Positions 5,825-7,713 of a DNA stretch of 7,713 bases are shown here, piece by piece. Below the pieces are notes generated by a model. The model was not told the origin of the DNA, did not search any database, and saw nothing but the letters and a program-made list of their open reading frames with translations. The translations under genes were made by a program, and so were the position numbers. This DNA comes from Nitrospirota bacterium (GTDB taxonomy: Bacteria > Nitrospirota > Nitrospiria > Nitrospirales > Nitrospiraceae), in NCBI GenBank assembly GCA_020028595.1, contig JAIBHQ010000062.1:1-7713 (forward strand). The letters are read 5' to 3'. Position 1 is the stretch's first letter. Every line of letters begins with the position of its first letter.

Positions 5825-5900
5825 GGGCGATTAGCTCAGTTGGGAGAGCGCTCCCCTCACACGGGAGAGGTCACTGGATCAAGACCAGTATCGCCCACCA
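5825..5900 (+). tRNA. tRNA-Val (anticodon CAC) with an abnormal T-loop
   Basis: The cloverleaf is complete. The acceptor GGGCGAT (5825-5831) pairs with ATCGCCC (5890-5896), and the D-stem is GCTC/GAGC (5834-5837, 5846-5849). The anticodon stem CTCCC/GGGAG encloses the loop CTCACAC with anticodon CAC at 5858-5860. The T-stem is ACTGG/CCAGT (5873-5877, 5885-5889), and discriminator A is followed by an encoded CCA (5898-5900). The tRNA reads the valine codon GUG. The T-loop (5878-5884) is ATCAAGA, whereas bacterial tRNAs have T54, T55, C56 and usually a pyrimidine at 60. Both 54 and 60 are A here. A54 cannot become ribothymidine and cannot form the usual T54-A58 reverse Hoogsteen pair. All stems pair perfectly, so decay of the whole gene is not apparent. 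Confidence 0.95.
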
Positions 5901-6002
5901 AACCGAGCTTGCTGAGCCGCCGCGTTCGATCAAATCGTGGCGGATAGGTACGTTGCCTCCAGTGGCTTAGATTCTTCGCCGAACCTCCGGAGTCCCACTC
6001 AG

Positions 6003-7162
6003 ATGCGCGAGGATGTGGTCGTCGTGGGAGGCGGGCTGGCCTCCTGAAAGAGGAGATGCGGCGGCTCAATTCTCTCATCATCCGCGTGGCGGACGAGGTC
6101 CGCGTCCCGGCCGGCTCGGCCCTCGCGGTGGACCGCGACCAGTTTTCGCAGAAAATCACGCAGGCGCTCGAAGGTCATCCGAACATCCGCATTCTCCGAG
6201 AAGAGATCGCCGACATTCCGACCGACTGCGTCTGCATCATCGCCACCGGCCCGCTCACCTCCGACAAGCTGGCCGCCGCCATCCAGCGCCTCACGCACTC
6301 CACACATCTCTACTTTTTCGACGCCATCTCGCCGATCATCGACGCCGACTCCATTAACATGGACGTCGTCTTTCGCGCATCGCGTTACGACAAGGGCGGC
6401 GCCGATTATCTCAACTGCCCGATGGACGAACAGACATTCAATGCGTTCTACGACACGATGATGGCCGCCGAAAAAGTCCAGCCCAAGGAGTTCGAGAAAA
6501 ACACGCCGTACTTCGAGTCCTGCCTCCCCATCGAAGTCATGGCCGAACGCGGCCGGCAGACGATGCTCTTCGGCCCCTTGAAACCGGTCGGCCTGGACGA
6601 TCCCAGAACCGGCGCGCGGTTCCACGCCGTCGTGCAGCTCCGCGCGGAAAACCGCCACGGCACCTGCTACAACATGGTCGGCTTCCAGACCAAGCTCACC
6701 TACGGCGAGCAGAAGCGCGTGTTCCGCATGATCCCGGGGTTGGGGCAAGCCGAGTTTCTCCGCTACGGCAGCGTCCACCGCAACACCTTCATCAACTCAC
6801 CCGAGCTGTTGCGCAACACTCTGCAGCTCAAGAGCCGCGGGACCGCGTTCTTCGCCGGGCAGCTCGTCGGCGTGGAAGGGTACACCGAATCGGCGGCGAT
6901 GGGCGGACTGGCCGGCCTCAACGCCGCGCGGGGGCTGGCCAACCTGCCGTTGGTGACGCCGCCGCCGACCACTGCGCACGGCGCGCTGCTGAACTACATC
7001 ACCACCACCGAGCCCAAACACTTTCAACCGATCAATACGAATTTTGGGCTGTTCCCGCCGCTCCCGGATCGCGTCCGTGACAAGGAGCAGAAACGGACCC
7101 GCATCGTTCAACGGGCGCTGGAGGACTTCGACGGATGGAGAAACACATTCGAGCTTTCGTAG
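6003..7162 (+). pseudogene. trmFO: TrmFO, tRNA (uracil-54) methyltransferase, disrupted by an N-terminal deletion
   Basis: Intact TrmFO (about 440 residues) makes m5U54 in the tRNA T-loop using methylenetetrahydrofolate and FAD. The N-terminus begins at ATG 6003 as MREDVVVVGGGLA, the start of the FAD Rossmann motif. It then jumps at about 6040 directly to LLKEEMRRLNS, which in intact homologues lies roughly 53 residues later. The missing part should hold the rest of the FAD motif (GSEAAW), the YEMRP strand and the CSNSL segment with its conserved cysteine. The junction also shifts frame, giving a TGA at 6045-6047. The remainder is open from ATG 6056 for 368 residues and is well conserved, including PAGSALAVDRD, the ESCLPIE cysteine (residue 156 of that frame), and the GYTESAAMGGLAG region. 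It overlaps xerC by 28 nt. Either a recent real deletion or an assembly error could explain it. Confidence 0.88.
7120..7125 (+). promoter_or_regulatory. Ribosome binding site of xerC
   Basis: GGAGGA within the 3' end of trmFO stands 9 nt before the ATG at 7135. It selects that ATG as the xerC start and supports co-transcription with trmFO. Confidence 0.7.
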
Positions 7163-7713
7163 CGTTCCTCGAAGACGAGCGCGGCGCATCGTCCGAGACG
7201 ATTCGCGCCTATCACTCGGACCTTCGACAGTTTCTCGCCTTCGCATCGTCGAAACGTCCCGCCGGAGCCGCGCCGATCAAACCATCCGATGTGGACCCGA
7301 TGCTGGTCCGCGAGTATCTCTACTGGCTGGACCGGCGGCAGGAACAGACCTCCTCCCTGGCACGCAAGCTGGCCGCGCTCCGCACCTTTTACCGCTACCT
7401 GAACCGGAACAAAACCAGACGGGTGAATCCGGCCGCCGAGGTCCGTACGCCGAAACTGCCGCAACGGCTCCCGCGCGTCCTGACCAAGGACGATGCGAAC
7501 GCGCTCATGGAGTTTCCCGAAGGCGACGGCTTGGCGGCGCGGCGCGACCGGGCGATCCTCGAAACGCTGTACTCCACCGGGGCGCGCGTCAGCGAATTGG
7601 TCGGCATGAACCGCGAGGATCTGGACCTGCGCGAGGGACTCGTCCGGCTCCGCGGCAAGGGACGCAAAGAACGGATCGTCCCGATCGGCGACGTCGCCGT
7701 CGAGGCCATCAAG
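7135..7713 (+). CDS. xerC: Tyrosine recombinase XerC (partial, cut by the window end)
   Basis: XerC, with XerD, resolves chromosome dimers at dif by tyrosine-mediated strand exchange at the division septum. The first 193 of about 300 residues are present. They comprise the N-terminal SAM-like core-binding domain (about 1-100, with ETIRAYHSDLRQFL) and the start of the catalytic domain. Visible there are the first catalytic Arg in STGARVSEL (Arg151) and the beta-hairpin Lys in RGKGRKERIVPIG (Lys175). The His-x-x-Arg, His/Trp and nucleophilic Tyr lie beyond the window. The trmFO-xerC order is the familiar one that often continues into hslV and hslU, which favours a chromosomal XerC over a phage or integron integrase. 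The gene starts inside trmFO with a 28-nt overlap. Confidence 0.93.
   Translation, partial: MEKHIRAFVAFLEDERGASSETIRAYHSDLRQFLAFASSKRPAGAAPIKPSDVDPMLVREYLYWLDRRQEQTSSLARKLAALRTFYRYLNRNKTRRVNPAAEVRTPKLPQRLPRVLTKDDANALMEFPEGDGLAARRDRAILETLYSTGARVSELVGMNREDLDLREGLVRLRGKGRKERIVPIGDVAVEAIK

Follow-up and report, generated by a model that had tools for sequence, protein, structure and literature searches.

A 160-bp gap in trmFO of a Nitrospirota draft genome is probably an assembly or library error

Gene content of the contig

The DNA studied (the window) is the whole of contig C62 of the draft genome G000, 7,713 nucleotides in length. The draft amounts to 1.30 Mb in 243 contigs and is 76.55% complete, with 0.28% contamination. 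Besides trmFO, the window carries an SRP RNA (460–559), a gene at 640–2430 that is presumably dnaX, another at 2427–2753 that is presumably ybaB, recR, a dksA-like gene and, on the minus strand, a gene for a TPR-containing protein. A tRNA-Val(CAC) gene (5825–5900, plus strand) lies upstream of trmFO. On the other side the contig end truncates a xerC/xerD-type recombinase gene (7135–7713, plus strand), which is why its 181 bits against TIGR02224 fall below the whole-protein cut-off of 335.15. A dispersed intergenic repeat (5894–5993, no strand assigned) lies between the tRNA gene and trmFO; it recurs at three other sites in the part of the sister genome G002 that was fetched and at four more in G000. 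Two other parts of the window are also repeated intergenic stretches: 36–163 (87.5% identity to L160:15302-15429 in G002) and 209–331 (81% identity to L210:18993-19112 in G002).

A gap at the start of trmFO

As assembled, trmFO is in two pieces. The 5' fragment (6003–6047, plus strand) starts as trmFO does in two sister genomes of the same genus, G002 (locus L003) and G001 (locus L004), and from the ATG at 6003 its frame reads MREDVVVVGGGLAS before meeting a TGA at 6045–6047, after 14 codons. LLKEEMRRLNSL then carries on in a different frame, open up to 7162. The 3' part proper (6056–7162, plus strand) encodes 368 aa, equivalent to residues 72–439 of the intact protein, and is recognized by TIGR00137 and NF003739. 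In both sisters trmFO is intact. By blastn, window positions 5939–6041 and 6038–7713 match 172–273 and 430–2105 of the G002 locus, and 5981–6041 and 6038–6168 match 467–527 and 684–814 of the G001 locus; relative to both, the window lacks exactly 160 bp, or 3×53+1. The initial annotation had proposed a loss of about 160 bases (3n+1, about 53 codons), with the frame lost and the product truncated at the TGA, and the alignments bear this out, the body being read in another frame. The junction contains no Ns, which counts against an assembly error.

The residues absent from the window are approximately 14–66 of P0001, the 439-aa protein of G002. GGGLA is followed by a serine and the stop, which leaves the FAD/dinucleotide-binding motif out of frame with the body, and the cysteine of CSNSL (C52 of P0001, aligned with C51 of Thermus thermophilus TrmFO, 3g5q) lies inside the missing 160 bp. 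The suggestion that the FAD motif was partly lost and the CSNSL cysteine wholly so is therefore upheld by the alignment of P0001 with 3g5q. The second catalytic cysteine is retained: FESC in the window is FEAC in 3g5q and, in the alignment of P0001, corresponds to C223. Passages of two papers describe C51 as the general base and as the FAD-linked residue in the reaction intermediate (PMC7226160, PMC5954106). The product as assembled would presumably be inactive.

The two edges of the missing block have GGCC in common (6038–6041, plus strand), a 4-base overlap in blastn against both sisters; as an exact match it presumes a left edge like that of G001 (CTGGCC), G002 being one base off (CTCGCC). 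Such a direct repeat favors a genuine, recent deletion, in which slippage or end-joining between the GGCC copies would have made trmFO a new pseudogene and left the tRNAs without m5U54. An overlap of at least four bases is expected in 2.2% of random joins, so GGCC is compatible with a short-repeat deletion in the cell as well.

The remaining body of the gene

In profile searches, the 3' part scores 529.4 bits against TIGR00137 (cut-off 428.65) and 550.2 bits against NF003739 (cut-off 262). The TIGR00137 score, being above its cut-off, excludes a chance match, and the gene is trmFO. With 98.7% identity to residues 66–439 of P0001, the remainder of the gene is as intact and conserved as had been claimed. 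Over the 362 codons compared, 2 nonsynonymous and 8 synonymous changes fall on the window branch and 2 and 9 on the G002 branch, with 8 further synonymous differences placed on neither. The codon changes on the two branches give no indication that selection on the remaining body has relaxed, which counts against a genuine deletion; therefore, the loss is either very young or not biological. To judge from its profile scores and its identity to P0001, purifying constraint on the 3' part persists.

Could the 3' part be a shortened but working protein? Translation restarting at ATG 6056 would yield the 368 aa, with a new role; this frame is intact and conserved, and AAGAGGAG stands immediately 5' of the ATG. 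However, in the intact gene AAGAGGAG belongs to the coding sequence, and its distance from the ATG is too short for a usual ribosome site. The shortened protein would also have neither the dinucleotide-binding start nor the catalytic cysteine that aligns with C51 of T. thermophilus TrmFO. The TrmFO literature gives this missing cysteine as required for activity (PMC7226160, PMC5954106), and a working protein of this kind is extremely improbable.

Second copies, substitutes and distribution in the family

A search of the whole of G000 (76.55% complete) returned one trmFO and an MnmG-type match on C88; no second trmFO was found. The missing block was not found elsewhere in G000 either: when the block of G002 is searched together with its left flank, the sole match is to the flank, at 5987–6041. 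Both results speak against a misjoin that conceals an intact trmFO elsewhere in the genome; the sole point in its favor is the incompleteness of the draft, and the chance of it is very small. TrmA was considered as a stand-in for TrmFO and dropped, as none of 61 genomes has a match above the cut-off. (Sub-threshold matches in 38 of the 61 are presumably related 23S rRNA methylases; that of G000, on C108, has 70.2 bits and is likewise below the cut-off.) For a genuine deletion, the lack of another trmFO and of a TrmA above cut-off in G000 is a point in favor. Another is the statement, in a part of PMC5954106, that TrmFO and TrmA activities are dispensable under optimal growth.

In the family, trmFO is present in 160 of 175 genomes searched and in 113 of the 114 that have at least 90% completeness and at most 5% contamination; the latter figure is a point on the side of an artifact. 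The named relatives picked out by the 3' part are mostly Nitrospira or Nitrospirae metagenome genomes. Among the matches listed, only those of G000 (from residue 64) and G026 (from residue 22) begin well inside the protein, and that of G026 begins at the first base of its contig. Two drafts have two full-length trmFO copies each (G114:C64; G137:C177 and C7), those of G114 being about 8 kb apart on a single contig.

Gaps in other genes of the same draft

One simple check on claims of this type is to look for comparable gaps in housekeeping genes of the draft that are unrelated to the one in question. The G000 sample (61 of the 243 contigs, including the window; 347,670 bp) was compared with 1,518,216 bp of G002; about 196 kb of it aligns, at about 94% identity. 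When only losses of at least 50 bp that break a recognizable gene are counted, five G000 genes, trmFO among them, each lack one clean piece of 50–166 bp, and all five losses break the frame. The other four are gapA (86 bp missing, C60), recO (127 bp, C6), an ACT-domain gene (166 bp, C18) and a Rieske-domain gene (50 bp, C38). Their G002 versions score 448.8 bits against GAPDH-I (cut-off 367.2), 149.6 against RecO (48.7), 31.2 against Pfam ACT (27) and 32.8 against Pfam Rieske (20.3), respectively.

In G000, gapA consists of two pieces in two frames and lacks residues 133–159, presumably those around the active-site cysteine of SNASCTTN; no other gapA copy was found in this genome. The gene matches from residue 1 to at least residue 301 of 332 in 18 of 20 other genomes, the exceptions being G043, where it is cut by a contig end, and G008, which has only a weak, distant match. 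Similarly, among 21 genomes searched the Rieske gene is split in G000 only: 18 of the 20 others have a single match covering at least 311 of 313 residues, while G005 has no match and G043 only a distant relative.

In the reverse direction, G002 against G000, a single loss of 50 bp or more breaks a frame. It removes 151 bp, with an 8-base overlap, from a small lipoprotein-like gene (L215) that is whole in G000 (C146, L194:10744-10888). G002 also has an in-frame loss of 78 bp. The asymmetry of five to one, G002 being a draft as well, is no more than suggestive; the weight of the control rests on which genes are gapped, and especially on the catalytic core of gapA. Frame shifts of 1–7 bp are seen in both directions, and the ORF comparison matched 168 of 1454 ORFs in G002 and 167 of 299 in G000. 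The count for G000 leaves out losses of 414, 99, 968 and 30 bp, which are unclassified or intergenic, and that for G002 leaves out losses of 213, 105, 64, 54 and 105 bp along with the 78-bp one. (The 64-bp loss was inspected and lies upstream of a gene; the other four were judged by ORF coordinates.) Also left out were gaps of 15–39 bp within alignments, of which there are 12 rows for G000 and 4 for G002. A 146-bp difference on C23 was rejected as a gene gap, as it falls between two intact genes. The 968-bp and 414-bp stretches, present in G002 and absent from G000 (L271:4347-4350 and L145:2949-2952 vs L163 and L248), both have a 4-base overlap and could be mobile insertions with a target repeat.

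The 5' end of trmFO in other drafts

A tblastn search gave 110 trmFO entries (98 distinct translations, some contigs being present twice from two sources), and 105 of the 110 are full length, counting as such L012, which has an in-frame loss. In a Nitrospira draft, L105:2841-4086 (JACRQB010000082.1), about 68 bp by tblastn coordinates are missing from codons 56–76. This loss breaks the frame, and its join, with a 5-base overlap, is inside the contig. L012 (G032:C168, protein P0101) lacks five codons in frame at codon 14, directly after GGGLA, so that its glycine motif is incomplete, and has a CTGGC repeat at the join. All three internal losses (the window, L105 and L012) are within the first 77 of 439 codons. 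Such clustering may mean that deletions really do concentrate here or that assemblers cope poorly with this stretch, and the losses in L105 and L012 can be set on the side of a genuine deletion.

Contigs begin at codon 69 (P0004, L085) and at codon 22 (P0005, L013 = L038) of trmFO. Across drafts, starts recur at the same codons, at 69, 22 and 28 twice each, and also involve P0009 and P0078, these P proteins being a small sample chosen for shortness. Contig ends fall elsewhere in trmFO too, in G014, G035, G053 and G055.

In each of the three genomes of the genus, the neighboring tRNA-Val(CAC) gene (in the sisters at L003:3-78 and L004:138-213) has the T-loop ATCAAGA, in which position 54 is A and not U. 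This tRNA could thus not receive m5U54. The other tRNAs of G000 and the other tRNA-Val(CAC) compared have TTC at position 54, and the compared tRNA-Val(CAC) genes with TTC are on the strand opposite to trmFO. (According to a review, PMC7912444, A54 is a peculiarity of eukaryotic initiator tRNA.) It might be proposed that a Nitrospira-family lineage has just lost its only U54 methylase through a short-repeat deletion at the FAD motif, with the rest of the gene as yet untouched, and that, given the losses in L105 and L012, the 5' end of trmFO is a recurrent hot spot of inactivation, beside a tRNA-Val gene that has already given up U54. Taken as a whole, this is distinctly improbable.

Origin of the gap

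Why, then, does trmFO lack 160 bp? The most likely explanation (probability about 0.75) is that the draft assembly went wrong locally, or that a library molecule was chimeric, and not that the organism underwent a deletion. A real deletion is unlikely, and whatever else might account for the gap is highly improbable. An artifact is favored because comparable pieces are missing from other housekeeping genes in this draft, and because a free-living cell is unlikely to lose its only visible gapA. If the deletion in trmFO were genuine, the pieces of gapA, recO, the Rieske gene and the ACT gene must have gone by the same type of event. The idea of a very recent event in the organism, put forward in the initial annotation, is for this reason not favored. 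Of the two circumstances that it had named as telling against such an event, assembly collapse is favored by the other gapped genes, while a second intact trmFO was not found in this 76.55% complete draft.

An error of this type would arise when the assembler, or template switching during library preparation, joins two nearby pieces at an overlap of 0–4 bases and drops the intervening stretch. In that case trmFO would be whole in the cell itself, and formation of m5U54 would be expected. By alignment, the joins overlap by 4 bases in trmFO, 4 in recO, 1 in gapA and 0 in the ACT gene, although such BLAST overlaps may contain a mismatch, the species being about 6% apart. Each missing piece is shorter than the insert of a usual read pair. 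Overlaps and lengths together fit either assembler joins or template switching in the library. High GC or stable folding was rejected as a shared cause of the five gaps, since the GC percentiles of the missing pieces in G002 are 94th for trmFO, 50th for gapA, 45th for recO, 67th for the ACT gene and 3rd for the Rieske gene.

Taken at face value, the gap would go on record as a case of a Nitrospira-family lineage naturally losing m5U54. If, on the other hand, the deletion were true, it would provide a natural trmFO-minus bacterium in which to study the role of m5U54.

Comparison with known systems

Local assembly errors and scaffolding gaps of draft metagenome genomes are described as leaving incorrect protein-coding genes in public databases (PMC7111523), and many putative pseudogenes have been attributed to assembly errors (PMC11017572). 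The present case resembles these in its short, clean gaps, in a fragmented draft, in conserved single-copy genes that are intact in sisters. The published errors are defined by read support; the gaps of G000 come from a comparison of assemblies. The loss or change of uracil-54 methylases in Mollicutes, as treated in part of PMC7226160, is similar in that uracil-methylating enzymes can be lost in nature. There, however, genomes are eroding, whereas what remains of trmFO in the window is not decaying. Compared with TrmFO itself, the folate-/FAD-dependent tRNA uracil-54-C5 methyltransferase (TIGR00137; solved structures 3g5q, 3g5r, 3g5s), the window version has a 3' part above the curated cut-offs and keeps the second cysteine (FESC, C223), but as assembled it is without residues 14–66 or thereabouts, and with them the end of the dinucleotide motif and the CSNSL cysteine.
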